Assembly: GCF_029873635.1 (NCBI RefSeq)
Contig: NC_080426.1
Coordinates: 58,622,673 to 58,686,672, forward strand
Source of the DNA: Malania oleifera
Lineage: Eukaryota; Streptophyta; Magnoliopsida; Santalales; Ximeniaceae
Reading direction: 5' to 3'
DNA length: 64,000 nucleotides
The position numbers and the translations under genes are program-made. Below the pieces are notes generated by a model. The model saw only the letters and a program-made list of their open reading frames with translations. It had not been told where the DNA came from and did no database searches. Positions 1-58,022 of this stretch are shown piece after piece (position 1 is the first letter of the stretch; each line of letters starts with the position of its first letter).

Positions 1-266
1 GGTCGATCAGGCTAATTTTGAACTAAGCATGTCAGTTGACCAGACCGTTGAGTTCCCACACGTGGGAACTCGGTCGACTAGGTTGTTGGTATGCAAAAGA
101 GTCTCGGTCGACTAGGAGGTCAAAATGTTGACTTCCTAGAAGGTTCGGTCGACTGGGGCTAAATGAACTACAGGAGTTTGGTCAACCAGGCTGTGGTCAA
201 CTAGTTGACCCAGTCCAGGTTTGGTCGACCAGGGGCAAAATGAACGTGAGGTTCTGGTCGACCGTG
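1..266. repeat. Palindrome cluster A (GGTCGACCAGG type) in Copia LTR
   Basis: About nine copies of a short motif close to CGGTCGACTAGG or GGTCGACCAGG occur at irregular 15-40 bp spacing (near 1, 34, 70, 105, 146, 179, 194, 221 and 256). Several copies read GTTGAC or GTCAAC, as expected if the central CpG decayed by methyl-cytosine deamination. On the minus strand the cluster lies about 0.4-0.66 kb into the LTR. The sequence where a TATA box would lie is outside the window. Confidence 0.75.
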
Positions 267-662
267 TGTGCATATTTTGTGCATTTCGGTCCTGTTTCAT
301 CCGACAAACACCCTATTCAAAAGTATAACATATACAAGTGAGTGTGTAAGGGTCCTTGGGTCCTTTCTAAGTCTTGTTTCAGTTATATTTCGGTTTGAAC
401 TTATGTATTAGATCATGCAAGTGATGTGTGTGTGATTATTTCAAACCAAAGACCCTAATTACTATTACAAACCCTTTGCATAAATGAAATATATTACGAT
501 ACATAAAAATTAGGTCTTCAATAAAAATTTGGTCTTCAATCTTCACTCTCTCTATATGCATTATGATCTGTCAATTTAAGTTCATGTACATAACCTCAAA
601 CACCCATTAGATATATGAGTATTTGTCATTATCAAAACCAGGCGTGACCTATAAGGTCAATA
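1..662 (-). mobile_element. Copia-type LTR fragment, cut by window edge
   Basis: Read on the minus strand, this begins TGTTGACCTTATAGGTCA, the same opening as the LTR at 55324 (TGTTGACCCTATGGGTCA), followed by a TTTTGATnATGACAAA stretch shared with it. It ends abruptly at about 662, where Ty3/Gypsy integrase sequence begins, so it was inserted into that older element. The rest lies left of the window. It carries a cluster of GGTCGACC-like palindromes at 1-265. It is a fossil; no coding sequence is seen in it. Confidence 0.7.
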
Positions 663-664
663 GA

Positions 665-1457
665 AGAGTTACGCAGATGTTCACCGTCGAGAGTTGGAAT
701 TCAAGGTAGGGGGTAAGATATTCTTGAGGATCGCTTCGATGAAGGGAGTGATGAGGTTTGGGAAGAAGGGCAAGCTGAGCCCGCTGTTTATCGGACCATT
801 TGAGTTACTAGAGCGAGTGGGTTTGGTAGCCTATAGAATTTCACTACCTCCGGCACTCTCTAGGATCCACGATGTGTTCCACTTATCTATGTTGAGAAGA
901 TATGTGTCGGATCCATCACATATGATTAGTTAAGAACCTTTGGATATTGGGGATGCTTTGGCATATGAAGAAATACCCGTTCAGATTCTAGACTAGAAAG
1001 TTCAAAAGCTGCATACCAAGGAGATACCATTAGTGAAAGTGTTATGGGGGAATCATGTGGTTGAGAAGGCTTCTTGGGAATTAGAGACGGAGATACGCTG
1101 GAAATGTCCACAACTGTTCTGATGATTAAAGATCGTCAGAACTACACAAATGCACAGGTAAATAGTAGTTTTGTTTGCAGGATCGGTCTAGGTAGGTAGG
1201 TGATGTTTTTGTTATTTAGAGTGATGATGTGGTTAGTCTCTAGGAGAGTTTGTGGTATTGTGAGCTCCCGATAAAGTGTATATGTAACCACGGTATTCTT
1301 CTACCATAAGTGAGAGTATGATATATATTGGGACGAGGCTACTATGTGGGTGGCCGCCGGCTCTTCCTAGAGTCAAGTGTGTGTTTGGTTTTATTGTTGA
1401 GTTAACGAGTGAGAGATTGCAAATTTCGAGGACGAAATTTTTGTAAGGAGGGGAGGT
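665..1457 (+). mobile_element. Ty3/Gypsy chromovirus-like pol tail and polypurine tract
   Basis: Translation shows the C-terminal end of a Ty3/Gypsy integrase (EFKVGGKIFLRIA, then GPFELLERVG, then IHDVFHLSMLRRYV), followed by a chromodomain-like segment (KEIPLVKVLW, ASWELE). The same integrase end (FEVGGKVFLRIA) occurs in the minus-strand element at 58.3 kb, so they belong to one lineage, Tekay/Del-like by my reading. A purine-rich tract (AAGGAGGGGAGG) sits directly before the LTR at 1458. Everything upstream in the element is displaced by the LTR at 1-662 or lies outside the window. It is broken, with several interruptions. Confidence 0.8.
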
Positions 1458-1535
1458 TGTAAGAACCCAATCCAAGAAATGTGGATTAAACAAATAAGAA
1501 AAAGGGAAGGAATCTAAAAAGGTGAAAACAGCAGG

Positions 1536-1733
1536 GCTCGTCGACGAGGTTCCTTCTCTCGTTGACGATGTTCCTTATATAGCTCGACGAAAAAATTCAG
1601 AGGTTTGTCGACGAGTAAATACCGAGAGATTTTTGGAATTCTAAAATCTCAGGCTTGTCGACGAGGCCACACCGTCGTCGACAAACACCCTTCTTCTGCT
1701 CGTCGACGAGCGCTCCACTTCGTCGATGAGTTT
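1536..1733. repeat. Palindrome cluster B (CTCGTCGACGAG type) in Gypsy LTR
   Basis: About eight copies of CTCGTCGACGAG or close variants (near 1537, 1559, 1582, 1604, 1653, 1674, 1700 and 1720) occupy under 200 bp. Variants with GTTGAC or GTCGAT in the core fit CpG decay. The cluster ends about 20 bp before the LTR TATA box at 1750-1760. The related LTR at 56274-58094 has the same arrangement. Confidence 0.82.
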
Positions 1734-1749
1734 GGCTAGGTCAACTAAG

Positions 1750-1760
1750 TTATAAATATT
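1750..1760 (+). promoter_or_regulatory. LTR TATA box, target of the solo LTR insertion
   Basis: TTATAAATAT lies just after palindrome cluster B. The equivalent position in the related minus-strand LTR is CATAAATAGA at 57801-57811. The 5-bp target site AATAT duplicated by the nested solo LTR (1760-3904) is part of this box, so the old promoter is now separated from its start region by 2.1 kb. Confidence 0.55.
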
Positions 1761-3904
1761 GTTGACTCTATGAGTCCAATCTGGTTTTGATAATGGAAAA
1801 TCACTTGGTATTTGATCTATGCATTGAGTTTGTGAACATGAACTATATTAAGCATGCACGGAAGAATAACGAGTCATGGAAGCCTTAAAGTAAAGCATAC
1901 ATATCTTGGCAAAATCCATGGAACTCAAAGAGTACGAGAATCAAGATGCAAGCGGCAAAGTTTAAGAACATCTTGGGATTGGGTACTTAGATCTCATGTA
2001 TGTACATTTTCATATGATTTAATTTGAGGCTCAACATAACTTAGAATGACTTTAAGATTCATGCATTTCATGTATATCATTAAGGGACTTTCATGGACTT
2101 AGAAATACTTTTAAGATCATGGACAATATGTTTTATAAAAGACCCAAGAAGGAGAGCAAAGCATAATTTTAATTAGAAAATAAAATTTCAGAAAATGGGG
2201 ACTTCGGTTGCCTGAACTCAACCTCAGTCGCCTGAAGAATTTCTTCAGGAACCTGAAGATTAAGTGCAGTTGCTTGAAGATTTAATGGAAAACACATAAC
2301 CTAGCCGAGGCACTTCGGTCGCCTGAACTTAGGACTTCAGGAACCTGAACTTGCCACTTCAGGAGCCTGAACTATACCTTAGGCACCTGACCTTGTATTC
2401 CAAGTTAAATTTTCAAAGCTTTAAGGGACTTCGGTGGCCTGGGCTTCGACCTCAGTCGCCTGAACTTGCGGGAAGACTTAAAAATCTTATTTTTATTAGA
2501 AGGACTCGCGAGCTATTTCTTTGATCCAACGGTTGAGATCAATTCTAAGGGTAAGACACTATATATACTGAATATTTAAACCCTAGTAGGTTAGCCAAAC
2601 ACAAGAAGATCAACGTAAAGTGAAGAATACATCTTGTTGAAAAGAGAACTGAGAAACTTGAGCTGTTTGATATAAGATTGCTTGCATTCTAGCTTCTACA
2701 CATCGTCTTTAGGCAAATCAACTCAAAAAATAAAAAAGGATCTCGATTATACATCCTGTGTTTCAACTTGGATTGAGGTTTGATTAATACATTTTTTTTA
2801 ATCTCATATCAACATCCGTTTTGAATATCCTTAGAGAAGTTTGATGTTGAGTTTTTTGCATTCATATAAAGATTGTTTTTGACAAACTCAATACTTGAGA
2901 AAGTTTTTATTTGGGCATTGATTAAAGATTGTTCACTCAAGTGTGTTCTTAGTTTAAGGCTGATATTTTGAATACATCTAAACTATTTGATTATATATCC
3001 TTAGCAGTGCATAACAATATATATAGATATATTGAAGGATAGTTTCTAAAAATCAAATATTAAGTTTGTTGTTCTTTGGTATTTTCACCATATAGATATA
3101 TAGATATATACTTTAAGTCAAATATTACCAAGATCACTTTGAGATTGAAATCTTGAGAAAAATATTGTTTTTAACAAAGTGTGTTTAAAATCTTTGCAAT
3201 CTTCAAAGCTTTTTGATAAGTTCACATTAGTTATTCATGATTTTTCGTAAAGTGAACTAGAACCCTAATATGCTCCAAAGCGTTTAAATATATCATTTTT
3301 GGGAGATTTGATAAAAATGAATTTGTATGTTGAAGCATATGATATACAAACGATTGTATCGTTTCATACATTCTAAGCTTCAAGTTATATCATATGTTAA
3401 TGTATTAGGAATTGAAATTGTACTCACGAGCTTTTGCTTGGAAGCATTTTTGAATGTTTTTACAGATTCCATTGTATTCACGGTTCGGTGTGTGAACCGT
3501 GGTTTGAGGAGAGAGTTGTATCTCTTGTAAACAGTTGATTGTAAGGGAAACTCCATCCCAATTTAAGGAGCAGGGATTTTAGTGAAATCTTTGAATGGTT
3601 GCTTAAGGCGAGGACGTAGGCCGAGTTGGCTGAACCTCGTAAAAGCTGCGTTTGTCTTCTCTCTTCCCTTTACTCTTTACTTTCAGCACTACATTTAAAT
3701 TGGTCGTATTGCATGTGTAGGTTGAATAACATTGCACATAATTAATTGGGTAATAAGAACTCATTGGTAAATTGAATTTGTTTTTGTTATAAATCCCTTA
3801 GATTGGTTTGCTAAATATACAAGTAGGGATTAAGTAGTAAATAGATTCAAAGAATTTTAAAATACCCAATTCACCCCCCTCTTGGGATTACACCTAATTC
3901 AAAA
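1760..3904 (+). mobile_element. Copia-type solo LTR (about 2.15 kb) with 5-bp target duplication
   Basis: Begins TGTTGACTCTATGAGTCC and ends with CCCCCCTCTTGGGATTACACC plus a short tail, the same end structure as the LTR at 48793-50987. The target duplication AATAT flanks it (1755-1759 and 3905-3909). Interrupted Gypsy LTR sequence resumes right after it. No primer site or internal region is present, so it is a solo LTR left by LTR-LTR recombination. It carries palindrome cluster C (2200-2463) followed by TATATATA near 2561. Confidence 0.85.
2200..2463. repeat. Palindrome-derived cluster C (CTTCGGTCGCCTGAACT type)
   Basis: About eleven copies of a motif between CTTCGGTCGCCTGAACT and CTTCAGGAACCTGAAC are packed into 265 bp of the solo LTR. 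The skeleton CGGTCGNCNGAAC is shared with clusters D and E in other LTRs. A TATA-like CTATATATAC at 2560-2569 lies about 100 bp downstream. Confidence 0.75.
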
Positions 3905-4048
3905 AATATCTTATTCATTGCTTCATGGTTAAGAAACTCAAATTCTCTATCTCCTCTCTCTATAACTCGAACCACTTTCTCTCTCTCTCTCTAAGGTTTC
4001 GGGCCATCTGTTGCCCGAATCAATGATCCGATGTTCCTACGTGGATCG

Positions 4049-9100: not shown

Positions 9101-12100
9101 TGCAGAGTCAGACCCAGAAGTTAAATCCATCATGAAGGATATGGGAAAGGATTTAGATCGATGGATCACTGAAAAAGAAATAGAGGAAGCCGCTGATCTG
9201 ATGACCAAATTACCCAAGCGAAATAAAGAATTCATAGAAAAAAGAATCAACAAGCTCAAGAGAGAAATGGAACTGTTTGGACCACAAGCTGTGGTGAGCA
9301 AGTACCGTGAATATGCTGAAGAGAAGGAAGAAGACTACCTGTGGTGGTTAGATCTTCCCCACATACTGGTAGACGTGTGAATATTCTTTTTGTCTCATCT
9401 TTTATCTCTACCAGACTCATAGAATTACTGACTAAAAAGGAATCCTTTCATATTTCTTATAAATGATATTGATTTGATTGTGAGCTTTCTTAATGTTTTT
9501 ATTCACACACTCACTTTTGCACATGCATACAGACACATAGTGCAAGAAAGAAAGTTAATTTCTAGAATATATATTACTAGTATTGTCCACTGAAAATCCT
9601 GGTATAACACTATAAGAAGATTTGCATGTATCCTATTTTGTTCAAGATAGCAATTTAAACATGCATCACCCCTGCAATTTTAAAGATGAATAATGAATTG
9701 TTCTTCTTCTTTCTGTTTTCCAGTGTATTGAACTATACAGAATTGAAAATGGGGAGCAGAAAATAGGATTTTATTCGTTGGAAATGGCTGCAGATCTGGA
9801 ATTGAACCCAAAACAGTATCATGTGATTGCTTTTGAGGATCCTGGTGATTGCAAGAATTTTAGTTATATCATACAGGCTCATTTGGAGATGCTTGGAAAT
9901 GGCCTTGCTTTTGTTATTGCGCGACCACCCAAGGTAACTAATCCTCTTTTTCTGCAACAAAATTGTAATTATTTTTTCCATTATAAGTAAAGAGTAAATT
10001 TCATGCGATAGGCAGAAAATATAATTGTCTGATTTCATTTTTCAAGCATGCATCACTTAACTTGTGGAGCTCATAGGCAATCTACGATGAGTTCTAGTTG
10101 AAGGATTATCAAGGAGAAAAAAGATGTATATTTCTGAATTTATTTTCTTGCTTTGCTTTAGCAGTTGAAAATAATACAATCTGTAGAGCCCCACTGGGCC
10201 ACGGTGCCATTATAGAGTCTGTCATGTTACCTTGTGTGCTGAAAATATGCAAATGATACCTTTTCGATGACCTGTTTCAGCAACCTTGTAATTTTATTAT
10301 TTTCCATTATTTTCCTATTTTCACATAATTTTGTAATAGTATTTTATTATACACTAGCAGATTCGAGGGTTTTGTTTATTAGGAAAGGGGCATCCTATTA
10401 GTATTTAGGTTTCCTAATTTTATTTGCATGATAATGCCTGTGAATATATTATTGTAAATTTGTAATAGTTGAATATTAAAATGAATTTGAGTTGTTAGAA
10501 TTTATCCCTTTGTGTGAGAGAATTTTGGTCCCCCATCAATTGGTATTGGAGTGCCGAACAGCTGTTATTGCTGCCCTCCTAATGAGCATTGTTCCATCAA
10601 TACAACTTAATCACCCTAGTTGCTGTTGAGGCATCCTTACCCTTTCCTCAGCATGTGCAATCTCCAATTATTCATCCTCAGGTAGCAGATATTAGAGCTG
10701 CTCACTGCAGGAACTGTATGAGTGCTTGGTCGTCCATCTTGACCCCACACCCTCATAACGAGCAGAGCTTCATTAAACAATTGAGATCTCTTGGTTTGCC
10801 ACTGATTCCTGAATCGCCTACCGAGTTCACCTGCACTCGCGTTTGTTGACCAGCCACACTCCCTAGCCAGTCACATCCCTGTTTATTGTATGTGAGCAGT
10901 TGTGACTCCATCCAAAATCCAATGGAGGCACTAGGCCTAGGAAAGAAATAGTTTTGCAAAAATCATCCTTTTAAAGTACAAGTCATAAGCCAAAAGAGAA
11001 AAAAGATTGGTCAAAGACAAATATATATATATATGTGTGTGTGTCTGTGTCTGTGTATGTATGTATTGCTACATGTTCCATAATGCGACGGAAAGAAGAT
11101 TTACATTCACCAGGCTCTTCATGTTAGGTTTTACATGCTTTATATACAACATTATGCTAGATGTCAAACCAGTCGTATTCCATGCTTCTTGGACCAAATA
11201 TGTTTACCAAACAAAACACATGCTTTGTGTTTTCATGCTAACTTATAGTACATGCCTATAAAGGTGGGAAATCTTTTGGAAAATTCAGCAAGGCAGCTTT
11301 CCTTCAATGCTGAAATCATTAAGGAAATAGGTTGAGCAACCACAAGTTCATTAGACATCCTTAATCTACCCTCATTCATATAAGAACTTCATAACTTTAA
11401 GATGTGATTTTTATGTACATGCGTCTACACTATTGTCATGAACGTATTCCCTATTTTAGGTAATTTGTTTATCTAGAGTTACCATTTCAAACAATGCAGT
11501 AGCACATCATTTCCCTGTCATTTCAACATAGTAGTATGTCATGGGCCGACTATTTTCATCCCTTCGTGAAAGGCACTAGCTAAAACACTCTTGCTTAACT
11601 AACCAGTCTATCGTTTACCACAATTCATCCACAAAATACTTTCATTAGCATTCAACCAAATAGTAGCGGGAGTAGTAAGCAATTATGAAAGCAGTGGCAA
11701 GCAAGCAGTAAACATTGAAGTAACACAATTCATTAACAACACTTCCGTTGACATTGTGTGTTTAGCGAGGGAGGCAAGTAGGCTGAATACGTTGACAATG
11801 GCTAGTGAGTTTTACAAGACTGATGAACACTCACCCTCCCCTAAAGAGCTTTATATGCAAATATCATCCTGGCACTAGGAAACATCCAAGTGACCGAGGA
11901 GTCATTCTGCCGTCTCCTCTGCCGAACAGTACTTTGGTGCGGCTATGAACGTACCATACTTCGAAAACCTGTCTATAACCACAAGTATAAACCTTGCATC
12001 TCCCACTCTTGGCAGGTTGGTGATGAAGTCCAGTGAGACACTTTCCCACGATTTGGATGGTACTGGTAGGGGCTCCAGTAGCCTTGCACTCTTTTTCTGC

Positions 12101-15100
12101 TCCACTTTGTCTTGTTGGCCAGTGAGACAAGTCTGTGTACAATCAACCACATCATCACGCATGTGCGGCCAATAATACCTATGCTTCAGTAGTTCTGTCA
12201 TTGGAGTCATTCTCCGCGAGTACCCCTCTGCCAACTTCCTGTAATAGTTGGTGAGGTCAAGATAGGAATGCAACTCCTTCACTGTCTTGGGGATCTTCCA
12301 TTCTTGAATTGCCCTTACCTTCTCCATATCCCTCCGGATACGACCTTGCTCCATCACATGACTAAGGAATTTGTTGCTTCGTTGAGCGAAATATCACTTC
12401 TCTTTCTTCACATACAGACTGTTTCCCCTTAGCTCGTCAAACACCTTCCGTAGATGCTCTTCATGTTTCCTCTGAAACAGCATCGATGCTCCCAATGGTG
12501 CTTTGGAAGGGCGAACATATCCCGCTTCCAACTCATCAAGTTGTTTCCTCCGCTATGCTAGCTCTGGAGGCGCCATCTGATATGGCCTTGTTGCAGGTGG
12601 TTTTACTCTTGGCAACAACTCGATCCTATGCTCCATAGTCCGTCGTGAAGGTAAGTTATGAGGCATCTTATCCAGCATCATCTCCTTGTACTCATCTAAC
12701 TCCATTTGGATGGTCGTAGACACTCGCTCTTGGCCTACTTCTTCATCTACCACCACTGTGGCTAGATATGTCTGCTCACCCTTTCTCAATCCCCTCTTGA
12801 GTTGCATGGCTAAAAGGGACTTCCCGTCGTCTCCTTTCGTTGCAACGACTTGCACCATGCATGGGTGATCTCCCATCAGGCATAGGGAACTAGTAGAAGG
12901 CATCAGCACTGCCTTTGTCCCCTTTAGGAATTCCATTCCCAAAATGACTGTAAAGTCATCCAATGGCACCGCTATGAAATTTGCATGACCTTCCCACTGT
13001 CCAAGCTTCACATTTACTTGCTTGGCTACTCCTAGAGTAGGTTGGGCTACATAATTAACTGCTTTCATGTATCCTGTATCCTTCTCCAAGGATAAGTTGA
13101 GTCTCCATGCTTTCAACTGCAAAACAAAATTATTAGTAGCCCTGGTATCCACCATAGCGTGGGTACTCTTCCCATTGATCCTCAAGTCCACAAACATCAG
13201 TCCCTTGGCTTGTGTAACTTTCGGTGCTTTCGCCTGCTTTTCCAATGCGCTCACCTGACGCATTGCACCCACCCTCGGGGTTTCCTCCTCTTCCCCATCG
13301 CTTTCCACCACTTGTCCCGAAGTGGAAGCTTGCAAGGCATTGAGTAATCCTTTGTGTGGGCACTCACTAACTCTATGAGGGCTTCGACACAAGAAATATG
13401 AAAATTTTCCCTTTCCATTTGGTTTGTTGAACCCTCGAGACGATGAAGCTTCCTTTGAAGTTGAGGCCTTACAGTCAGCTCCCCCACCCTTGGGTTTGCT
13501 TTTTTTGAAAGACTTTTCACGGTATTATCACTTGCGTGGTTAGTCAAGCATTCTACGGCAGCTTGCGCGGTAGACAGGTCTTGAACTCTTTGTCTATGAA
13601 GTTCAGTTCTTGCCCACAGTTTCAATCCTTCAAGAAAATAGATATCCTTTTCTGACATGTCCCAAATATCCAACATCAAAGCAGAAAATTGTTTCATGTA
13701 TTCCCTGATTGACCCACTATGCTTGATGTCTCTTAGCTTTTTCCTAGCATTATACTCGACGTTCTCAGGAAAGAATTGGGCCTTGAGTTCTCTCTTCAAG
13801 TCTACCCAACTATCCACTACACAGCATCTAGTTTCAATTTCATTGTACTTGGTACGCCACCACAGTTTGGCATCACCAACCAAGTACATGGTTGCAGTAT
13901 CCACTTTCACTTGTTCTGAGGTCGTCCTCACAACGCGAAAGTACTGCTCCATATCAAACAAGAAGTTTTCTAACTCCTTGGCATCACGGGCACCCCCATA
14001 TGTCCTGGGTTCTGGTACCTTGGTCTTGCTAACTCCTGGAGTGTTGGAGTTTCCCATAGCAAGAACCATCAGATTCATCCTTGCATCCTAGTCAGCTATC
14101 TAAGACTGCAAAGTTTCCATGGTGTGGTGAAAGTCTTCTGACATCTCACCTATCCGACTTGCTTGATGTTTTTGTGATTCCATCACTTCATCAACAAGTC
14201 CCCTCAGTTGGGCCCTCTTGTTGGCTGTTCTCTCAGCCTGTGCTTCCAACATGCTGATTCTTTCAACATTGTTTGGTGTCATGGTCACTTACCAAAGCTT
14301 TCCAAATCCCACAATGAAGGTAATTGAATTCACGTAGCAAATAACCTTTGCTCTGATACTAGGTGTCACGGGCCGACTATTTTCACACCTTTGTGAAAGG
14401 GCCGTGCGTCGCTAGCTAAAGCTTTCTTGCTTAACTAGCCAGCCTATCGTTTACCACAATTCATCCACGAAACACTTTCATTAGCATTCAATTAAATAGC
14501 AGCGGAAGCAGTAAACAATTATGAAAGCAGTGGCAAGCAAGCTGTAAACATTGAAGCAACGCAATTCATTAACAACACCTCCATTGACATTGTGTGTTTA
14601 GCGAGGGATGCAAGCAGGCTCAACACGTTGACAATAGCTAGTGAGTTTTACAAGACTGATGAGTGAGTTTTACAAGACTGATGAACACTCACTCTCCCCT
14701 AAAGAGCTTTATATGCAAATATCATCCTGGCACTAGGAAACATCAAAGTGACCGAGGAGTCCTACTGCCTTATTTGGCATACAGAGAAACTTCTAGTAGA
14801 AAATAACCCTACACTAGTATTTACATGATGGAAACCCATCCCCAACGCACGAGACGAGTGGTCACAGGCAAGCATAATGCCCTGAACAAGCTAGGCTTGT
14901 GACAGTACCATGCAGTACCATCTCAAACAAATGTGAATTTCTAGCTTGGCTGGCCACAGAATAAAGCAAAAATACCTTTTGGAGGTTTAGGGCTCACCCA
15001 AGGGAGTCACAACCCCTACTTACTCAAATTTCATAATCTCACAAGCATAAACAAAACACAATGCTACAACATATCTAACCATTTCACTTAATAGGAATTG

Positions 15101-27440: not shown

Positions 27441-27459
27441 GAATGTGTTTTGTATTTCT

Positions 27460-38267: not shown

Positions 38268-38407
38268 AAAGGAGATAATGAGTAAAGATTTAATATCCCT
38301 GAATATGTCAAAAGTAATGGTCCATGATCGCATAAATTGGCGGAAAATGATTCATATAGCCGACCCTACCTTGTGGGACTTGAGGCTTGGTTTTGTTGTT
38401 GTTGTAG
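38268..38407 (+). mobile_element. RTE LINE 3' tail fragment 1
   Basis: Matches the 3' end of the RTE copies on the plus strand (TTTAATATCCCTGAAT, AATTGGCGGAAAATG, ATATAGCCGACCCTACCTTG) and ends in (GTT)n. Only the last about 140 bp are present, typical of 5' truncation on insertion. Confidence 0.85.
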
Positions 38408-41721: not shown

Positions 41722-42636
41722 AGTTACCTCAAAGTCTGTTTCTGCTTTTCTGTTTTTGTTTTCTTTGTTTTTTGTTTTTGTTTTGTTTTTTTTGGTTTTT
41801 GTTTTTGCTTTTTGTGCTTTTGTTTTTGTTTGTGTGTGTTTCCAAAGCAACAAGACGATTTGCTGTATTAAAAGGTGCGAGAAGAGAAGGGAGAGGGGAG
41901 GGGTTGTCTTGCTTTTGATACTGGGCACTGGGCAGGGCTGCCTCTGGGATACAATTATGCACTTAACAAAGGTATTTTAAAAAGCACCCAAGATGCTTTT
42001 ATTTTATGCTAGGTGTTTTAAAGATAACTTTTGAGTAAAAATTACGTTTAGCATAATCTCTTAATTTTCAATTTGAAAATAACAACCCTAATTTTCAAAA
42101 TAGCAATAGCGTTCCCCCCTCCCCATCAACGACATTAAAATCAGAATCAACCAGATTGGTAACCTTGGTTTCAGGTTAACTTCAGTGAAGAGCACATTTT
42201 GAATTCACTGTGCTATTGGTATGATCTCTCTCTCTCTCTCCAAATTGCAGAGAAGCATGTAGAGCTCCACAACTATTCCCTAAGCAAGTGGCTACAAGAA
42301 CATTAATAAACGCTGCCATGTCTGGTAGGAGACTGCTAAAAAATAGCAAAACCAAGTACATCTTGTGCAAATCTTAGACCAGACATAAAAATACATATTA
42401 TTTTCCGCCTTCAATACAAATTTAAAGTATCCATAATCCAGCAAATTATATGTTCAAGATTCATAACTTTTGTTCAGTATCTTGATACATTTCCAAACAA
42501 CATATGAAAGAATTTGCAGTCACATGAAAATAAAGAAATTTCTTCTTGGCTTAAAATGTATGGATATAAGGTTGATCCATACATATCTATGTATGCCCAA
42601 TAACAATAATATATATGCCACAAAAGAAATATATAC

Positions 42637-45309: not shown

Positions 45310-46056
45310 TTTTTTTTGCAGGAAACAAAAAAACAAATTAAGTTCAGGCTATGAATCAACGAGAAAGGCTTAGATCTTCTAACCCTCTAGAAATGCACCC
45401 ATAGTTCTAACAATCTCTCCCATCTGACTACGTCTCAGATGCTTATAAATTATAATAAACTAACTTCTGTACAAAAAACAAAGAAATACTTGAAAAGGCC
45501 CAATAATTTCGAACCCTAGAAATTCATCTCCGGCCCTTTAAACGAGAAACAAACCACGGTCAAAGCACCATGCAACTGATCAATTATTTCCCAATCAAAC
45601 CAGAGCTTGCTGCTACACAAACCCCGGCGATCAAATCAGCACAGAAACCCTAAAAAAGTCAATACAGAAGCAATCAAAATCAAGACATCCCAAAGGAAAA
45701 AGATGAAAACTTGAAGGTCAAGGCAGACGCTTCAGAAATTTAGGGGAAAACCCACAAATTTCAAACAACTGGGAAGGTTTCTGCAGTCGATATTTGCGAA
45801 CTTATGAAGACTGCATGTATGGAGATTAAACAATCAAACAAAGAAGAAAAAAAGGATTCTTACCAGGAGCAAGAATCGAAGAAATCGGTATAGCGTAGCT
45901 AAGCTTAAATTGAAGAGCAAATATAGCAAATGAGTGGATTAGCTTTCAAATTCGCGTGAATGGGCCGTTCAAATCGACGATTTTGTGCAAAAGAATGGCC
46001 GGAGAAGGGCACATTGGAGACGAAGACCAGAAAAGAATGACGCGTGTCGTCGTTGG
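45310..46056 (-). other. 5' UTR, likely leader intron and proximal promoter of PI4K-gamma
   Basis: On the minus strand, a GCTCCTG|GTAAGAATCC donor near 45863 and a TTCATAG acceptor near 45343 define a probable leader intron of about 0.5 kb, a common feature of this family. No coding sequence lies upstream of the ATG. Confidence 0.5.
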
Positions 46057-46066: not shown

Positions 46067-46209
46067 CAAGCTACGCGTTAGACTTTGGAAGGATAGAAGT
46101 CAATAGACCCTGGGGGTTTTGCCGAGAATTTTCCGATTTTAATATTATTTTAATTAAAATTATTTAAAATTATTTAGATAGAACTTTATTCCCATGTGTT
46201 CCACAAAAG

Positions 46210-47350: not shown

Positions 47351-47379
47351 ATAGAATTGGAATGAATTGAAGAATGTGA

Positions 47380-48792
47380 TGCTTTCTATCGGCCCTCGGT
47401 TTACGACATTATAGTAAAGTTGGAGTGATCAAAGGAGACCGGACAACGGCTCGGAATTGCTACGTAATGGCGTTGAAAGGTAAGACTGATTCACGAGAGA
47501 CCTTAACCATCAAAGATATGGAGGTAAAGGGATAATATATGTAGATTAGCACCTTAGACAAAGAACTTATGAGCATCCCAATAAATGATGATTAGGAGAG
47601 GTGCGTCCAGATTGGAAGCCGCTTATCAAAGGTCTTAAAAGCAGAGCTAAGTCAATTACTAAACAAGTATACAAACGTCTTTTCCTGGTCGGCTGATGAT
47701 ATGCCAGGGATTGGCCCTGCAATCATGGAGCACAGATTACAGGTGGACCCAAACCATAGGCCTGTGAAATAGAAGAAGAGGAGCTTCGCCTTGGAGCGGG
47801 TCAAGGTAATAGACAAAGAGGTAACAAAACTAAAAAAATCTAATTTTGTTAGGGAATCCAGAGTGACTCGGCATTGTGGTCTTAGTGAAGAAGCCAAACG
47901 AAAAGTGGCGGACCTGCATCGACTTCATAGATTTGAACAAGTCGTGCCTGAATGATAGCTTCCCCCTTCCTAAGATCAGCTAACTGGTACACTCTACGTC
48001 TGGACATGAGCTCTTAAGCTTCATGGATGCATATTCTAGATATAACCAGATTCGTATGCATCCTGAAGACGAGGAAAAGACGTCCTTCATCACAGAAAGA
48101 GGGCTCTACTGCTACAGAGTGATGTCATTCTGATTTAAGAATGTAGGCACAACGTACTAGAGGTTGGTGAATAGAATATTTAAAGATTTACTGGGGAAAA
48201 CCATGGAGGCATACGTGGATGACATGCTTGTGAAGAGCTTAAAGGCGGAAGAACATTGCAAGGATTTAAAAGGCGCATTTGAGCTGCTGCACAGGTAGAA
48301 AATAAGGTTAAATCCTGCTAGGTGCATGTTTGGTGTATCTGTAGGAAAATTCCTAGAGTTCATGGTGACACACAGGGGATTAGAAGTCAACCTTGACAAA
48401 ATACGGGCGCTGCTGAAGATGAAAACCCCCCCGAATGAAAAAGGAGGTCCAAGTCTCGACAGGAAGGATTGCTTCACTAGTATATTTATCTCTTGTTTGG
48501 GAGATAAGAGCTTACCATTCTTTAAGGTATTGCAGAAGAGGGGAGGATTTGAATAGAGATAGGAACAATGTAAGGCCTTCGAACAACTTAAGCATTACCT
48601 TGGTTCCCTACCATTGTTGACAAAGGCGAAAACAGGAGAGGACATGTACTTGTACGTGACCTCTACTCCACATGCGGTCAGTGCAATCCTAGTTAGAGAA
48701 GAGGGAAGGCAATACAAGCCCATCTATTACACGAGCAAAGTGTTAAGTGGGGCAGAAATCAGCTACGCAATAGTGGAAAAGGTAGTCTTTTC
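47380..48792 (+). mobile_element. Tat-like Ty3/Gypsy pol fragment (reverse transcriptase to RNase H)
   Basis: Plus-strand frames show reverse transcriptase (WRTCIDF.DLNKSC, FMDAYSRYNQIRMHP, and the catalytic EAYVDDMLVKS) and the start of RNase H (YLYVTSTPHAVSAILVREEG, YYTSKVLSGAEISYA). The EAYVDDM.VKS style is typical of the Athila/Tat branch. It is cut at 48793 by the large non-coding LTR element. It is broken, with several interruptions. Gag, protease and integrase are not seen. Confidence 0.82.
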
Positions 48793-49197
48793 TGTTAATT
48801 TTTGAGTCTGATCCCTGTTTTGATACCGATAAAGCACATGTTTCTTATGTGTGTATTTAGCATGTGAACAGATCCATTTATTTAACACACATATAAGGAA
48901 ACAACGATGGAAGCTTATAGGATTTAAAGACTATACGATCAAGCGCATTCCATGAAGTCAGAAGAGCAAAAAGATGAAGAAGACGTTTATCTATTGTAAT
49001 TGCATTTAATTTCTATATATTTGGTCTATAATAATGCATGCATCTGCATGGTGTGTTTGAATGCTCAAAACGACCGTACATAGACCCTAGGGACCAGCAC
49101 ATCTCACCAAAAATCTTTTTCTAAATAGACTAAAATCATACAAAGTTTTTGGAATAACTTTAGGGTTAAAATCAAGGCCAAACGAAGTTTACAAAAA

Positions 49198-49692
49198 CTT
49201 CGGTCGACTGACACCAGATTTTTTGGGTGTCCTCAAATGACCTAGACTGACCTTAGGAGTCCCCATACTACACAAAAATATGCCCTATCTTCTTAAATTT
49301 AATCATCATATGAATAGGGTTTATATACAAAGGGATTGAGACCGAAATGCACTAAATGTGTACATCCGGTCGACCAAACTTGTTAGCGCAAAAGTTCCCG
49401 GTCGACCGAACTCACTTAGTTCAAATGCACCCGGTCGACCGAACCTCCTAGGAGTCAACTTTTTTACCATCTAGTCAACCAAACCCAAAATGTACTCCAA
49501 TGCTCTAATCGACCGAGGCTCCTCGGGAGATGTCCCAACGCCATGGTCAACCAAACTATCCAATTCAAATCTTCCCGGTCGACCGAATCTTGCAAAACTA
49601 AAAAATCACCTTCAAACTTATATGTCCGGTCAACCGAACAGGCAGTTCATTTTTGGCTCGGTCGACCGAACCCCAAGTACTTGGATCGACCG
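49198..49692. repeat. Palindrome cluster D (CCGGTCGACCGAAC type)
   Basis: About eleven copies of CCCGGTCGACCGAACC or variants in about 0.5 kb (for example near 49200, 49368, 49400, 49431, 49507, 49575, 49627, 49659 and 49683), at 25-60 bp spacing. Variants carry GTCAAC or ATCGAC cores. A TATA box follows about 125 bp downstream. Confidence 0.85.
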
Positions 49693-49819
49693 AACTTGTC
49701 CTGGACAACTAGTGCTCTCGGGTTGGAATATTTTTTAAGTGCTAAAATGTCATTAAAATTTAATTAAACTTTTCCAAAATACCGAGTATGTCCCTTAACT
49801 GTCAGATTTGTTGAAAATT

Positions 49820-49829
49820 TATAAATACC
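49820..49829 (+). promoter_or_regulatory. LTR TATA box downstream of cluster D
   Basis: TATAAATACC in the middle of the 5' LTR, a classic plant core promoter sequence; it likely marks the U3/R border region. Confidence 0.6.
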
Positions 49830-50989
49830 CCCTTCATAACTCAGATTAACAACTTTGATTAACCCAAATCTTCTCTCTAATTTATTGTTACTCAAAGTTC
49901 CCCTAAAAAGGTTTTTGTTGTTTAAATTTTGTTGTTTAAATCATTCTTTTGGGGCAAAATATTTTAAACAAATCTCTTTAACTCTCTTTCACTTATTTTA
50001 TCTCAAAATTATTTTTAAAGAGAGTATTTTATTTTGGGCATATTATTTGTTTTTACATGCGTATACTCTCACTTGTTATTTACTTTTTGAAAATCAATCT
50101 TTGAGAGTATTGATTGCATTTCTCCCGGTTATTTCTTTAATAAATATTCTTGGGAGAAAAATTACTTATTGCACAAATTCTTTTTAGCTTAAAATTCCTA
50201 ATTTCTCCAAATATTATTTATTTGCAAAAATATTTATAGGTCAACAATAATACTCATTTTTCATATACATTTCATTTGTGCAAATTTTATTTAGATAAGC
50301 ACTTGTTACTCTACTGAGCTCAAATCATATCATAAGAGAGTGTATACATCTTAGAGTTTTAATGTGTACATTTCTGCTTGTATTTTTCGGAAGCATTTTC
50401 ATGTACAAAAATTGTTTTAATGTAACGGTTGGTTCAGCCCGTGAATTGAACTGGGGAGTCTCAGCTCCATAAATGAGACCGGTTCGGTTTAGCCCGGAAT
50501 TGAACTGGGGAGTCTTAGCCCCGTATATGAGACTAGTTCGGCTCAGCCTAATAATTGAGTTAGGGTTTTCCTCGCCCCATAAGGAGAGGATGTAAAAGGC
50601 TTTTGCTTCACCCGGTTAAGTGAGCAGGTATAGTGGAATCCTTGAAGGGTATGCCCAAGGCGGGGATGTAGGCTGGTTTGGCTGAACCTCGATAACAAAT
50701 CTAGTGTCGCTTTCTCTATCTTATTTAAATTCCTACACTTTAATTTCAGCATGTGTATGAATGCTTATTTAATGTCAAAATTATTCTTATGCACACATTT
50801 GATTTAAATTAGATACTGCACACGTGTATGTTTGCTTTTATCGTTAAACTCGCTTTACATACACGTATATAAGTTGAATGAGATATGAACTATGGTGAAT
50901 CGGCGAAACGTTTTAAATTAGTCGAAAAGTTTTAAATATTCAATTCACCCCCCCCCCCCATCTCTTGGGATCACACCAATTCCAACAAT

Positions 50990-51001
50990 TGGTATCAGAG
51001 C
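50990..51001 (+). promoter_or_regulatory. Primer-binding site of the LARD-like element
   Basis: TGGTATCAGAGC, complementary to the 3' end of initiator methionine tRNA, lies two bases after the LTR end. Confidence 0.85.
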
Positions 51002-54000
51002 CTGGTTGCAATAAGCTTAACCGCTATTTGTATAAAAATTCCAACAACTCATTTTTTTGGTGTATACTTGTTTTGAGGATTATTCCTTTGCAAATCCTCC
51101 ATGGTTTTATTGCATAGATTTTACTGTGTTAAATTCGAAAATGCTTTTGTAAAATCAAATGATTGGAGGATTTGGAAAGTGTTTGTCATGCTTATCATAT
51201 CCCATTGAAAATGTTTTCAAATTGCAAATTTCCAAAAATTTGGAAATGAATTGAATTTGCATGACATGTGTTTTAATGCATATCATCTGTGTGTCATGCA
51301 TACTTTTTTCTGTGCCTTAGTCACTAATGCTTTTGTAAGTTTATTCTCTTGAGTGCTAAGGTCCTTTGGGAAACATAAGAGGTATAAGAAACTGAAAGAA
51401 AGATGAACACCACTCCGAGCTTAAATGTCTAAGAAAGAGTAAGTGAAAAGGTATATATTTTTCTCCTTCTACTTTATTTGATGATTGATTCACATGTTGT
51501 TTGTTTTATGCTTATTTTTACTATGTGAATCTTGTGATGATTGCATACCATCTTATGAGGTGTACTTTCAAAGAACTCTTTTTATACTCATAAGATTTTA
51601 GGATAAAATATTTAAGAGGTTATAATGTTTTGAACGCTTAAATAGTGTTCTGTGCTTAAATTCTAAATTTTAATATACATTATCATCATACTACAAACCT
51701 TAGGAAGATAAAGCCAATAGGAGAATTTTAGTGAAATATCCAATCCATTTGGCCTTAGGTATATACATCATTATCATTGGATGTTACTTGATAATATTGG
51801 CTATAGCATGCTTATATAGAACTATCAATTCTTTATTCAAATGTCATAAGCATGTTTAAATAAAATCTCATTCAAATGGACAAATTGATTTTAAAATGTG
51901 ATTGTATTCGTAATGCTATATATATCTGCTATAATTTCAAAAATCTTAAATATAACATGTTTTGTCCTTCACACAGATTGAGGTTTAGGGAATCTATCAT
52001 AGTATTATATATCATGCTACCCTAAACTCATCATAGAGCTTAAACACTTAATCATATTCAAACACATTCATAAGCTCATTTTCCCATTTGAAAATATCAA
52101 TTATGCTAGATACTTAATTGAATATAAAACCTTTTAGCTGCATAACTGAGGGGGAGCAGAAAATTTAAAAATCCATCCAATAAACATCTTAAATTAGTGC
52201 TTATACTATTTGGATGACTTTTGTTGAGCTAAATGCAAATATCCATTTGTGCTAAATGAATACACTCTATGATGGCCGGATATTGTTTAAATTTGTTCTG
52301 ATGTGAGCTGAATGCCTTTGTCCATTCTTATTTAAATGACTATAGTTTCTCATGAATGAATTATTTGTTTTAAATAAATGCTTATATTCATCTTTTGATT
52401 TAAGTTCAATTATATTTGATGGATAACTTATTTGTATTGAATGTTACTATCCTTCGATTGCCTAATGATTATATCTTCGTATGGATAGTTTATATTTTAT
52501 TTGACATATTGATTAAACTACCTGAATGCATGCTTAGTTTAGAATGTCTCCTACATAGCGGATGCAGTTGATGATAATTGCATACTGGTAGTGGAAATAG
52601 GTTCTTGCATGCTTAAACTGGTTTATTATTTGTTAATTGCGTGAATCTATCAGGTTTTAGGTACATGGAAAAATTGGAAATGTTCAATTTACAGACGAAA
52701 TGCAGCCAAAATTTTGGTAGAATTTTTCCCAAAAATGAAACCATGTATTAGGATAGATAATTTAATGCATGCTAAAATATTTTTGAAATGATGAGTAAAT
52801 CATAAAAGAATTTTATTTTCCATCCTTAGTTATAGGTGCATGATGAACTGCCCGTTGGTGCATGTTGAATTTTTAAATGATATATGCTAAACCGAAAAAC
52901 ATGCACAATATTCATACTTGTTTCCTAGGATGCTAGATAACCAAATAGGTTGTACATATATAAATCTAAACCGCTATATAAATTGAAGACATGTACACAT
53001 TATGTTGTCCTATGAGAGATTAGTTCATGGACACCATTTGGTCCAATTCTTGGGTTATGCACTTTCATTCTGAACCCAAATGGTAAAGCATCATCCTTGT
53101 AATCAATCGTCACATGTTTTGATGATGGTCCATAAACTATGAAAAATTGCATGACTTAGGGGCAATTTTTCATTTCACACACACTCATTGTGAATTTTGA
53201 GTTGTGTCATTCTTTTAATCCCCTATTGCATTACCTTTGAGTATAGTCTTGATTGACTATCGTGTTGTTAAAATAAAATGTAATATGTCATGTTAGTATG
53301 TGCTAAATGCTTATATTTGCTGCATGCTGAAATCTTTTGAAATCATGAATTTTTGAGGAATGCTCTTAAATGACTATCATCCTGAACTTAATGCAAGTAT
53401 GTATGCATGCAAATATACAGGGGGAGTTTAAGTCCCACTTTTAAGAAAAATGAACTTAATACCTTTAATCTCTTGCATACTAAGTAATATTTAGAAGGAT
53501 GAACATGTGTTGAGTGTGCTTAAATGAAATCCATCCTTGAATGTCAATGCACTTTTGTATGCTTGAAACTATACCGAGGAGGTTAAGCCTCATCCTTGAA
53601 AAAGGATAAGAATCACCTGACCCATGGACTCGCATTATTTCTATTATTTCTACTTTTTGAGTCCGAAACTTTTCTCAATACCTTGAACATCATATCCTGT
53701 CTTGATAGAATATCCTTGATATGGATTGTTCCGGGTACATATGAACACCATGCTTGACTTACTGTTTGACTTTAGCGCATGTGTGTTTAGGGACATTTTA
53801 CTGTTGAAATTTATTCGTCCAACACTTATCCAGTAAAATCTGAAATTAATACTTATATTTTTTGGACTTTTAATGAATTTTCACAAATTATATTAGTATA
53901 AGTAGTTAAAAGAATCTAAGCACGTATTCAAATTGATAAGGGGAGCACCTAGAAATTATTTTTCTCTCTTGTTGTGCTCACAACATTTCTAGCTTAGATT

Positions 54001-54293
54001 TGGTTTTTGAAGTCATTGTCGTTTGTGCTTAATTGTAATGTCTTCATTGAATTTAGTAAACGAAAATATTTTGCTTGCCACAATGTTTTAGGTTTTGCCA
54101 TATGATCCTCATTCTTAAATTTATTTAATATCCTTGGATCTATATGGTTGCATTTTTCTGGCCATACTATGGATTCCACTTAAATGACAAACCAGGAAAA
54201 TAATCTTTGATTGAGTTTTAAATTAAAGTTTCTTTTTCAGCAAGTATAAGCCCCCAGTATTTATTGAAAATTTTAAGGGGATATATTTTATAC

Positions 54294-54330
<37 letters not shown>

Positions 54331-55064
54331 AATTTTCAAAAGCAAGAATTGAAATTATATAAAATACATCTTGGTTCTTACTTGTGTGCTTAAATGCTTT
54401 CATGACTTAATCTTGTGTCATGAAATTTTATTTTTAAAAGGGTGCTACATAACTAGTTCATTGACTTACATGAAATGCATGTGAACCAGTAAGATCATAT
54501 TTGTGCGCAAACCTTATTTTTGGTATCATATGTCGTGTGTCTTTAATTCAAATCTTCTACGGGTCTTATGATATGTTTCAATTGCAGTGGTTTGTGTATA
54601 TTTCTGGTCTAGCCATGTTTTACATGTCATTTTAATCTTTTATATGACCAGTTAAACTGTTGTGTGTGCCTTATTGCTACAATATTTTTTTAAAACAGTT
54701 ATAAATTTTTTATGTCCAACTGCTATATCACATAAGGGGAGAGTTTGTCAAAAATGGGGAGTTCTCTTTGCTAAATTTGTTTTAAATGATCAATCCTTTC
54801 TACTTCCTTTTGCTGATGACAAAAGGGGGAGAATATTTTTGAGCAAAATGTTTATGACCATAGGGGTAAATATCTTAAGGGGCAAAAACATAGGGAAAAT
54901 TGTCTGAGCATGTGCTTTAATGCCAAAATTAAATGTATAATCATTTGTATTGTCTTCTGTCTTAATATGCTTGAACTTTACTGTGTATATTTTCAATTAT
55001 GCATATTCTTGAGGGGAGCCTTTTCAGGCTATACCCATTTTGCTCTGGTGAGTTTGTCATCATA
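51002..55064 (+). other. Non-coding interior of the LARD-like element
   Basis: 4.1 kb of AT-rich sequence without a retroviral protein domain. Purine tracts of the GGGGAG type recur (near 52150, 53420, 53940, 54737, 54824 and 55069); only the last abuts an LTR. An (AT)n run lies at 54303-54332. Confidence 0.6.
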
Positions 55065-55078
55065 AAAAAGGGGGAGAT

Positions 55079-55323
55079 TGTTGAATTTTTGAGTCTGATC
55101 CCTATTTTGATGCTGACAAAGCACATGTTTCTTATGTATGTATTTAGCATGTGAACATGTCCATTTATTTAACACACACATAACAAAACAGTGATGGAAG
55201 CTTGTAGGACTTAAAGATTATACGATTAAGCGCATTCCATGAAGTCAGAAGAGCAAAAAGATGAAGAAGACATTTATCTAGTTGTAATTGCATTTAATTT
55301 CTATATCTTTGGTCTGTAATAAT
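55079..55323 (+). repeat. Truncated 3' LTR of the LARD-like element
   Basis: Aligns with 48793-49033 (shared GCACATGTTTCTTATGT, AAGCGCATTCCATGAAGTCA). It ends where the next LTR begins at 55324. Confidence 0.85.
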
Positions 55324-56273
55324 TGTTGACCCTATGGGTCATGCCTTGTTTTGATTATGACAAATATTTTGGTATTTAATGTCTATCTAGTTTGTGTGCA
55401 GGTTTATATTAGTAAACCAATTGATGGTACATGAAGACTTGAAGACTAAAGACCTTAAAGACTTATTGTAATTTATATTTTGTGTAATTTGGGTCTGTAA
55501 TAGTAACTAGGTGTATCGATCTGTAATAATCTGTGTATGTCATGCATGTAGGTATTTGTAAGCTCTCAAAATGACCGTAGATTGACCATAGGGATTGAAT
55601 GACTTTAGGGTACCCTTCGGTCGACCGACGCCAGGTTTTTGGGCGTACTTGAAAAGACCCTAGGTTCCTACACATTATGCACAAAGTCCCCATAATCACT
55701 TACATTATTAAGGGAAAGAATTGAAACAAAATTGGACAAAATATGGTAAGTATGTGAGAGGTCGAGCAACCAAACCTCAGGAGTTCAAAACTCCTCGGCC
55801 ACCCAAATTGTAAGAAAGTCAACAGTTTGACCAGGCTTCGGGCGACCGAACCTAAAATGACCTTATTGTCTTAGGGCGCCCAAACCCTTAAAAGGTTACT
55901 TTTCACCAACTCGGGCTACCGAACCTTCATATTCAAATCAAACCTCGGGCGACCAAATTGGTCATTTCGGTTAACCGAACTTAGCACCAGGCACTCGAAC
56001 CTACGAACGAATGTTTCTGACTTTTATTTGGGCTACCGAACCATCACTCGGGCTACCAAACTGTTCTTAAATGATTTTTTAAATTAGTCTGTTCATGCAA
56101 CTAAACCATAATTCAGCCACCCGAACCTCACTGGGTTAAAATTATTTTAACCGAGGTAAATATGGGTTAATAAGGGTTAATTGTGTTTAAACAATTTGAA
56201 ACTTTTCTAAGAATATCCAATAGGTCCCAAACGGTTATATTTTTTACCTAACCTATAAATATGGGTTCATTTG
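55324..56273 (+). mobile_element. Copia-type LTR, cut by the Tekay-like element
   Basis: Begins TGTTGACCCTATGGGTCATG, like the LTRs at 1-662 (inverted) and 1760-3904. It carries palindrome cluster E and a TATA box TATAAATATGGG at 56254-56265. It is interrupted 20 bp past the TATA box by the minus-strand Gypsy element at 56274. The remainder lies beyond the right window edge, if it exists. Confidence 0.75.
55614..56130. repeat. Palindrome-derived cluster E (CGGGCGACCGAACC type)
   Basis: About thirteen copies of TCGGGCGACCGAACC or variants (CGGTCGACCGAC, GGGCTACCGAACC, CGGTTAACCGAAC) at 20-60 bp spacing. The skeleton is shared with cluster D but the core has drifted away from a perfect palindrome. 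TATAAATATGGG follows about 125 bp downstream. Confidence 0.75.
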
Positions 56274-57800
56274 TGTCACACCTCGAACTTGAAAATGGGA
56301 CCCAGGGGTGAAAATGTAATCTAACATGTCCTTGTATCATACAAATCATCCAAAGATACAGTACAAAGGATGAGGGTCCGACCTCATGGGGTTCCTAGGT
56401 ATCCTAAACACATCCAAACACAACTATATACGCAGCGAAAAAAGTCATTCTATATATATATATATAGTACCATACTAGAGTTTATACAAGAGCAGACAAA
56501 AGGCTCAATTAGAACGTACAAAGGGGTGCCAAAATACATCTCAAAATGGCAACCTACCAAAATACAGTCCTAGCCCTTACCCAAGTGCTAACTGCAGTAC
56601 AACGGCCACTACGCTCCCTACAAAAGGACGCTAGTTCCGGTTACTCGAAGAATCTGTAAAAATGTACGTACAGTAGGGGTGAGACACCTCTCAGTAAGGA
56701 AGAACACAGGTTATATCGGTGAGTGGCATTTGAGTGTTATCACGATGCAACATACACACAGTTAAATGCAGTCCAGTACTAGTTTACATAATGCATACAC
56801 GCACACACACACATGATCAGCAATCCCGGTGTCATCACACCTATCGGCCCGAAGCCAGCCCTCGACATACGGCGTTGGCCCACAGCCAACTCGCGTAACA
56901 CGGCGCCACTAGCACATGGTCAGTCCCCGGCTGCCATGGCATTGTACCTGCACTAATTGGTAGATCCACACCCTTCGGCCTGATCTGCCGGAATAGGCTC
57001 ACGCCTTCGGATATAGAGTCAGACCTCTGCCAATCTATGGCTAGCGATTTCATATGCCATCGGATATAAAGTTGGACACTCTCAGTACTTGGAACAATTT
57101 CAAAATCGCGTTCCTACTAGCATTTCAATATATCACACACACATGCATGCCAAACAAACCACACCCATTTGGTAATCTAAAATCATGGTTTTTCAAACAT
57201 ATACAGTTTAAAACAAGTCAAGGCACGACCATCCCTATAACACAGTATAAATCAACATATACGTTCGGTTTTCAACAAAACCAGGGATGCAACCCGTCGC
57301 CCCCCTTTTTCTAAAAATTGTAATCATGAAAAACTCATAATTTTCCCCATTAGATTCCTCCAAATGAGTAGCCAAATGCACACAGGACCGTGAACCACAG
57401 TTCTACCAAGTCTAATTTCAAAAATAACTGAACATAATTCCCCTTACCTTTTCCCCGAATAGCAAATCCCGAACTCTAAGGCCCCTAAACAGCGAACCGA
57501 GTTCCAAAACCTACAAATCACAGTACAGAATGTACTCACAAGACTGCTCCCTACAAAACTACTAGATCAAAATTAAAAACTGAGCCTTACCTCGATTTTA
57601 CGCCAAAACTCGAAAATCTCCGAAACGGGATTTCGATCCGTAAAACTTGTAGAGAATCCTTTCATGATCCTCATGGTAACTTCAGATTCACGATTCCAGC
57701 AACAAACAGCGAAGAAATCTAGAGAGATAGAGAGTAGGGAGAGTTCTAGAGAGAGAGAGAGAGAGATATTTGAGTTTTCTTAGTTGAGAAGTAAAGAGAA

Positions 57801-57811
57801 TTCTATTTATG
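57801..57811 (-). promoter_or_regulatory. LTR TATA box downstream of cluster F
   Basis: Minus-strand CATAAATAGAA, immediately downstream of the palindrome cluster; the counterpart of 1750-1760. Confidence 0.55.
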
Positions 57812-57831
57812 GCCCCTTTGACTTGGGCGTC

Positions 57832-58022
57832 TTCGTCAACAAGATGGTGTCCTCAACGACGAGGCTCTATAGTCTTCTCGTCGACGAGACTGTGGATTCG
57901 TCGACGAATCCTGATATCACCGGTTTCCAAAAACTCCTCAGCTTCTCCTCATCAACGAGCCTCTGAACTTCGTTGACGAGAGATGTGTGGCCTTCGTCGA
58001 CGAATTCTGACTTCGTCGATGA
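57832..58022. repeat. Palindrome cluster F (CTCGTCGACGAG type)
   Basis: About eight copies of CTCGTCGACGAG or TTCGTCGACGAA variants in 190 bp, the same motif and LTR position as cluster B. It lies about 20 bp upstream of the TATA box in element orientation. Confidence 0.85.

Follow-up and report, generated by a model that had tools for sequence, protein, structure and literature searches.

The long terminal repeats (LTRs) of a 64-kb stretch of the Malania oleifera genome (contig NC_080426.1, positions 58,622,673–58,686,672 of the forward strand; hereafter the window) raise the question of why clusters of short palindromes recur in them and what purpose these might serve. The window carries many nested retroelements, and the first-pass annotation had reported palindrome clusters upstream of TATA boxes in six separate LTRs of several families. 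All six were recovered as arrays, four of them in Copia LTRs and two in LTRs assigned to Gypsy. A TATA-like box follows wherever the downstream side can be read, and two pairs of diverged LTRs have their arrays by inheritance. We hold, with slightly better than even confidence, that the arrays would be U3 enhancer boxes for a candidate dimeric DNA-binding factor and later a methylation target. All statistics were calculated within the window.

Palindrome arrays and their position relative to the TATA box

The arrays are as follows, the numbers of sites being copies counted at looser limits, without chance control:

Array A, 1–266, minus strand: 8 sites, best word TGGTCGACCA, in a Sirevirus-like LTR
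Array B, 1536–1733, plus strand: 8 sites, consensus CTCGTCGACGAG
Array C, 2200–2463, plus strand: 10 sites, consensus TTCAGGNNCCTGAA, best word TCAGGNNCCTGA
Array D, 49198–49692, plus strand: 11 sites, best word CGGTCGACCG, main cluster at 49365–49692
Array E, 55614–56130, plus strand: 12 sites, consensus TTCGGGCGACCGAA, best word TCGGGNNCCCGA
Array F, 57832–58022, minus strand: 8 sites, consensus TTCGTCGACGAA

As a correction to the first-pass annotation, A and F are placed on the minus strand, and the 8–13 copies per array reported there came to 8–12 at the loose limits.

A motif-free scan for 10-bp palindromic words (spacer 0, 2 or 4, at most two mismatches) was made in 350-bp windows, with one scored Markov resampling per window as control. 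Among its 30 best rows the six arrays ranked first of the words with at least 4/10 G or C, being the strongest G+C-rich palindrome clusters. Their scores were 15.4–22.7, whereas in the resampling the 99th percentile stood at 12.0 and the highest score at 15.4, with which array A (15.4) was only level. The remaining high rows consisted of A+T-rich words, one of which, with a score of 17.1, ranked between C and A and overlapped a 27-bp tandem repeat. In a stricter scan (8-bp words, one mismatch, 300 bp) only A, B and F together with two A+T stretches exceeded the threshold. When each stretch was searched with its own consensus, the copies found, set against the average over 300 resamplings of that stretch, numbered 6 against 0.15 in A, 7 against 0.47 in B, 10 against 1.18 in C, 8 against 0.22 in D, 11 against 0.32 in E and 6 against 0.45 in F. 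The loose word of array C was also frequent outside the array (200 matches, 187.8 expected).

The earlier count of six separate LTRs held as regards the arrays themselves but not their independence: at most about four are independent, because A and D are diverged homologues, as are B and F, and the LTRs D and E have blocks in common. An LTR-like pair at 11528–11911 and 14356–14769 contained no palindrome array among the 30 best rows of the motif-free scan, and arrays are therefore not common to every LTR. The members of this pair are 84% identical and flank a minus-strand Gypsy gag/protease region.

The boxes following the arrays are:

TATA box of LTR B, 1751–1757, plus strand: TATAAAT, with solo LTR C directly after it, inserted at 1760
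TATA-like box of LTR C, 2560–2566, plus strand: TATATAT
TATA box of LTR D, 49820–49826, plus strand: TATAAAT
TATA box of LTR E, 56254–56260, plus strand: TATAAAT
TATA box of LTR F, 57804–57811, minus strand: CATAAATA

A TATA-like box is thus present after the array in all five LTRs whose downstream side falls within the window, as had been claimed. The first-pass annotation gave distances of about 20 bp in Gypsy and 95–125 bp in Copia LTRs. Measured from the centre of the last site, the TATA box is 27 bp away in LTR B and 26 bp away in LTR F (Gypsy), and the Copia LTRs have distances of 103, 133 and 136 bp. Of points across the window, 6% have the same TATA pattern within 60 bp and 14% within 140 bp.

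Inherited layout and conservation of the sites

In B and F the distances of all eight site centres from the TATA box agree within 4 bp, a fit equalled by 32 of 100,000 random layouts, and A and D have a run of spacings in common (33/33, 41/40, 34/34 and 38/38). Both pairs thus retain orthologous sites at equal spacing and not re-amplified copies, which gives no support to the concerted turnover suggested by the first-pass annotation. Outside the sites B and F are about 58% identical, and the range for B/F and A/D together, likewise outside the sites, is about 57–61%.

The site blocks, defined on one sequence only, exceeded the rest of the alignment in identity in all four comparisons. The identities were 0.84 in the sites and 0.57 in the rest for D on A (1 of 255 circular shifts as good), 0.76 and 0.61 for A on D (18 of 300), 0.71 and 0.59 for F on B (12 of 292), and 0.69 and 0.58 for B on F (11 of 300), with the unshifted case included in these counts. 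Judging from the aligned LTRs, the site layout of B/F and A/D is inherited and not a product of recent exchange, and the sites are probably constrained. Constraint on the sites relative to the linkers is supported, not proven, and the selection on a U3 function proposed earlier gains moderate support from the inherited layout together with the conservation of sites above linkers.

Periodicity was calculated from 49 of the 51 spacings, two above 80 bp (166 and 145) being omitted, with site positions derived by script. The spacings favoured multiples of 10.5 bp (mean cosine 0.37), a value reached by none of 2000 random placements. When the best period was left free within 9.5–12, one of the 2000 random placements was as high. 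The preference for 10.5 bp is as expected of sites on one face of the helix.

Candidate function and alternative explanations

The observed/expected ratio of CpG was 0.79 in A, 1.81 in B, 0.54 in C, 1.26 in D, 1.00 in E and 1.54 in F, compared with 0.52 in the window, and in five of the six arrays (A, B, D, E and F) it exceeded the value for the remainder of that LTR. By the CpG-island rule applied to 200 bp (ratio over 0.6 at a G+C over 0.5), islands are present in A and F and in one window of D, and absent from B, C and E. In the arrays with a GTCGAC core, all 12 substitutions of the central CpG were C-to-T or G-to-A, whereas transitions made up 6 of the 13 substitutions elsewhere in the core (Fisher p 0.005). 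Such decay of CpG, supported although not proven, hints at methylated cytosine in the arrays without amounting to proof, and it fits the methylation target implied by the earlier idea of CpG platforms for silencing.

Words of the type TTGACY were found six times in A, four times in D and twice in E, and not in B, C or F. WRKY W-boxes were dropped as a general reading of the sites, as TTGACY is lacking from these three arrays and can arise through decay of the central CpG.

Between families both halves of the palindromic word differ together (GGTCGACC and CGTCGACG). Taken with the covariation and folding results given below, this points in our reading to selection for a word bound by a dimer, not for hairpins, and a dimeric factor is a plausible reader of the sites. 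In the mechanism we propose, each array would act as the U3 enhancer (upstream activating region) of its LTR promoter, composed of 8–12 dyad-symmetric, mostly CpG-centred boxes that end about 20–130 bp ahead of the TATA box. The boxes would be read by a putative host DNA-binding factor acting as a dimer. Because the boxes are CpG-dense, host DNA methylation would settle on them after insertion, and methylation and deamination would then gradually erode them. The binding factor, the activation and the methylation itself are inferred.

Several results weigh against this mechanism. The site-conservation contrasts are modest except for D on A, where the contrast is strong. Indels are not clearly rarer in the arrays, with 1.43 openings per 100 columns against 1.84 in the rest of the LTR (MAFFT) and, with a second aligner, 5.45 against 10.0, and the kept spacing may therefore stem from common descent alone. 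The 10.5-bp phase is slight in A (0.00) and F (0.19), and unsigned periodicity is stronger at 14–15 bp (0.43–0.44) than at 10.5 bp (0.37). The spacings are few, lumpy and, with B/F and A/D being homologous, non-independent, and the random placements took in one isolated, distant site each from D and E. Array C has no CpG enrichment (0.54, compared with 0.62 in the rest of its LTR), and the CpG-densest 200-bp windows of the 64 kb lie near 41.2–41.5 kb and 6.2 kb, B and F being only slightly less dense. When two poor D sites (six mismatches) are left out, the comparison of central CpG and core becomes 10/10 against 6/9 (p 0.09), which weakens the test of CpG decay. Finally, the half-sites show no copy-by-copy covariation within arrays (271 paired cells, compared with 271.7 when the right halves were re-dealt), and the symmetry is therefore held at the level of the consensus and not of each site.

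Alternatively, the arrays might act mainly through RNA structure: U3 is copied at the 3′ terminus of genomic RNA, and its palindromes would form hairpins giving rise to small RNAs and silencing. Folding was indeed stronger than in dinucleotide shuffles, with z values of -4.9 in A, -6.4 in B, -3.2 in C, -4.8 in D and -3.2 in F; in array E the value was -1.7, equalled by 6 of 100 shuffles. The palindrome-rich LTR regions of maize Sireviruses are where small RNAs concentrate, according to the accounts of Bousios 2016 given in PMC5311732 and PMC10760457. When the motif copies were kept and only the linkers shuffled (60 times each), the z values of A–F became -1.96, -1.78, 0.41, -0.46, -0.48 and -0.92. 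A and B thus fold somewhat beyond their motif copies alone (z about -2 and -1.8), and the near equality of folding after linker shuffling indicates that the structure is mostly a by-product of many copies of one palindrome. The absence of copy-level covariation of the halves also speaks against a role through RNA structure, which we consider unlikely.

An equally doubtful explanation is that the arrays are neutral, a short palindrome having been amplified by replication slippage or tandem duplication, with the position before the TATA box incidental. The copies are alike within each array, unit lengths recur (about 21 bp in C and about 32 bp in D), and short arrays inside B and C were reported by Tandem Repeats Finder. 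In array C also the flanks 8–9 bases from the centre are alike (1.1–1.5 bits), but in A, B, D, E and F these positions are mostly low in information. Neutral amplification is further opposed by the conservation of sites above linkers between diverged LTRs and by the fact that several arrays of different motif occupy the same place before the TATA box. The weakening of the CpG-decay test (p from 0.005 to 0.09) and the alike flanks of C raised our estimate for neutral arrays and lowered that for enhancer boxes.

Recent exchange between elements by gene conversion or recombination, named in the first-pass annotation as a refuting outcome, is highly improbable as the source of the likeness across LTRs: nesting does make B and C, as well as D, E and F, neighbours in the window, but the linker divergence rules it out, B/F and A/D being just about 57–61% identical outside the sites, the Copia and Gypsy LTRs differ in motif, and no Copia–Gypsy match of at least 80 bp crosses any array in the self-comparison.

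A wider extension of the enhancer proposal would treat phased, CpG-centred palindrome arrays right before the TATA box as a promoter design common to Copia Sireviruses and Gypsy Del/Tekay elements, at which each group arrived separately. A shared GTCGAC core would then be read by one methylation-dependent family of host factors, and both superfamilies would answer to the same host state. We give this extension only a small chance of being correct.

Carrier elements and comparison with known systems

Arrays A, C, D and E are located in Copia LTRs, of which D has the hallmarks of Sireviruses:

LTR A, start near 640–660, minus strand: Sirevirus-like, TATA side beyond the window
LTR C, 1760–3904, plus strand: Sirevirus-like solo LTR, inserted in LTR B
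5′ LTR of Sirevirus D, 48793–50987, plus strand: poly-C signal at 50941, primer-binding site (PBS) junction ATTGGTATCAGAGC at 50988
3′ LTR of Sirevirus D, first 245 bp, 55079–55323, plus strand: 91% identical to 48793–49035, truncated by LTR E
LTR E, 5′ part, 55324–56273, plus strand: Sirevirus-like, truncated at 56274 by a Gypsy element

The Sirevirus PBS junction, CA/ATTGG-TATCAGAGC, is found in element D as the ATTGGTATCAGAGC listed above, and the same pattern had no match in a viral contig collection, which holds no plant genomes. Element D also has the polypurine tracts of Sireviruses, with AGGGGGAG at 52149, 53419, 54824 and 55069, the last beginning 10 bp ahead of the start of the 3′ LTR at 55079. 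A poly-C integrase signal near the LTR end is present in C (3867) and D (50941); A and E do not have this part of the LTR within the window. In the self-comparison of the window, the LTR of array A resembles D (1–190 and 49584–49397) and E (434–660 and 55531–55326).

Solo LTR C is flanked by the target-site duplication AATAT at 1755–1759 and 3905–3909, and its final bases differ from the usual CA. As it follows the TATA box of LTR B immediately (1751–1760), it splits the Gypsy promoter from the transcribed part. The interior of Sirevirus D (50995–55078), only about 4 kb long and with no open reading frame (ORF) of at least 150 aa, marks the element as non-autonomous or decayed. A Sirevirus pol was not identified anywhere in the window. 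A 54-bp tandem repeat of 2.3 copies (50426–50548) lies in the downstream part of LTR D, and the region just upstream of the LTR (48500–48792) resembles, by eye, a broken Gypsy RNase H region.

The two remaining LTRs are:

LTR B, U3 part, 1458–1759, plus strand: Gypsy (Del/Tekay-like), start TGTAAGAACCC, polypurine tract at 1445
LTR F, 56274–58094, minus strand: 3′ LTR of a second Gypsy element, interrupting LTR E

The 5′ LTR of Gypsy element F begins within the window (62705–64000) and extends past its end; the two LTRs are 89% identical over their common part, which does not include the array. On the minus strand the element has RVP_2 at 60820–61311 and RNase H families at 59449–60138 (Pfam), followed by Integrase_H2C2 at 59104–59445 as a weak match (22.2 bits, compared with the Pfam cut-off of 25.5) and the LTR at 58094. 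The pieces 58609–59043 and 58249–58605 had no Pfam match. The order protease – reverse transcriptase/RNase H – integrase – LTR is that of Ty3/Gypsy, the integrase match being weak, and on this gene order F is classified as Ty3/Gypsy, as is B through its homology to F. The LTRs B and F match on both sides of the insertion of solo LTR C in the self-comparison.

Del and Tekay are one lineage. From the LTR and the integrase end, B and F probably belong to it: both begin with TGTAAGAACCC, which is similar, not identical, to the conserved Del/Tekay U3 end (whose commonest form in sorghum and maize is TGTAACACCC), and an SH3_Tf2-1 domain, the integrase end, lies upstream of LTR B at 664–930. A chromodomain was not detected by Pfam in the 41-aa piece 997–1119 near this integrase end. 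Protein and DNA-pattern scans of viral and prokaryote contig collections, which contain no plant genomes, gave no locus with related Gypsy elements. The two protein-query scans of viral contigs produced 14 and 6 pattern matches, none of which was confirmed. The 365 bases around LTR B had no match in a plasmid collection, likewise without plant genomes.

The Copia arrays are the repeated-motif (RM) boxes of Sireviruses that are already in print. The passages on these boxes in Bousios 2010 (PMC2829016) describe palindromic CpG-rich LTR boxes in 13 Sirevirus elements, with CpG islands and a TATA box shortly after; each element has at least eight of them, for the most part grouped in the upper half of its LTR, and within the Ty1/copia set they are termed Sirevirus-specific. 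The element from Vitis has 10 LTR copies of CGGTCGACCG, and this printed box is the best word of array D. Of the present arrays, C (10), D (11) and E (12) have at least eight clustered copies upstream of a TATA box at loose limits, and A has eight, its TATA side being beyond the window. The CGG-CCG core seen in 12 of the 13 printed boxes is present in the best words of D (CGGTCGACCG) and E (TCGGGNNCCCGA) and lacking from those of A (TGGTCGACCA) and C (TCAGGNNCCTGA). The clustered LTR palindromes of the maize Sirevirus cis-region (Bousios 2016, as cited in PMC5311732 and PMC10760457) are likewise comparable, but their motif is CACCGGACNNNGTCCGGTG and the small-RNA evidence belongs to maize. For Sireviruses, the arrays of the window are a further example of boxes known since 2010.

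B and F differ from the printed RM boxes in that they are Gypsy, not Sirevirus (Copia), LTRs and have the core CGTCGACG. The closest parallel is in Cruz 2014 (PMC4029996), where 5′ CpG islands variable in length and sequence are described from Del LTRs, groups I (eudicots) and II (monocot) being the only ones without them. In B and F, too, a Del-type LTR is CpG-dense in its 5′ part; they differ in that the dense stretch is a palindrome array whose layout is kept between two diverged LTRs. The main text of that paper uses none of the words palindrome, tandem repeat and inverted repeat. A literature search brought up no account of palindrome arrays in Gypsy, chromovirus, Ty3 or Del/Tekay LTRs, which is weak evidence of absence as subscription literature was mostly outside the search. 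Full-text searches for CTCGTCGACGAG, TCGTCGACGA, CGTCGACGAG and CGGTCGACCGA gave, judged by title, no LTR arrays among the matches listed. The first-pass statement that no general description exists therefore fails for Copia, including the very motif of D, and may hold for Gypsy.

The Gypsy arrays may be an undescribed parallel case, with the same design and place, a motif of their own and a position nearer the TATA box. If they hold genome-wide, one promoter design would be shared by the two large superfamilies of LTR retrotransposons in plants. In that case one data set of binding and methylation could address the reading factor and whether the boxes are activator, silencing target or both.

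Two genes are also present in the window:

PI4-kinase/ubiquitin gene, 43792–45336
LEA_2 gene, 41140–41928

Two long copies at 15191–17700 and 23669–26199 are 74% identical, with a third piece reversed at 38260–39112, and the ORF at 24246–24923 resembles, by eye, the reverse transcriptase of a long interspersed nuclear element (LINE).

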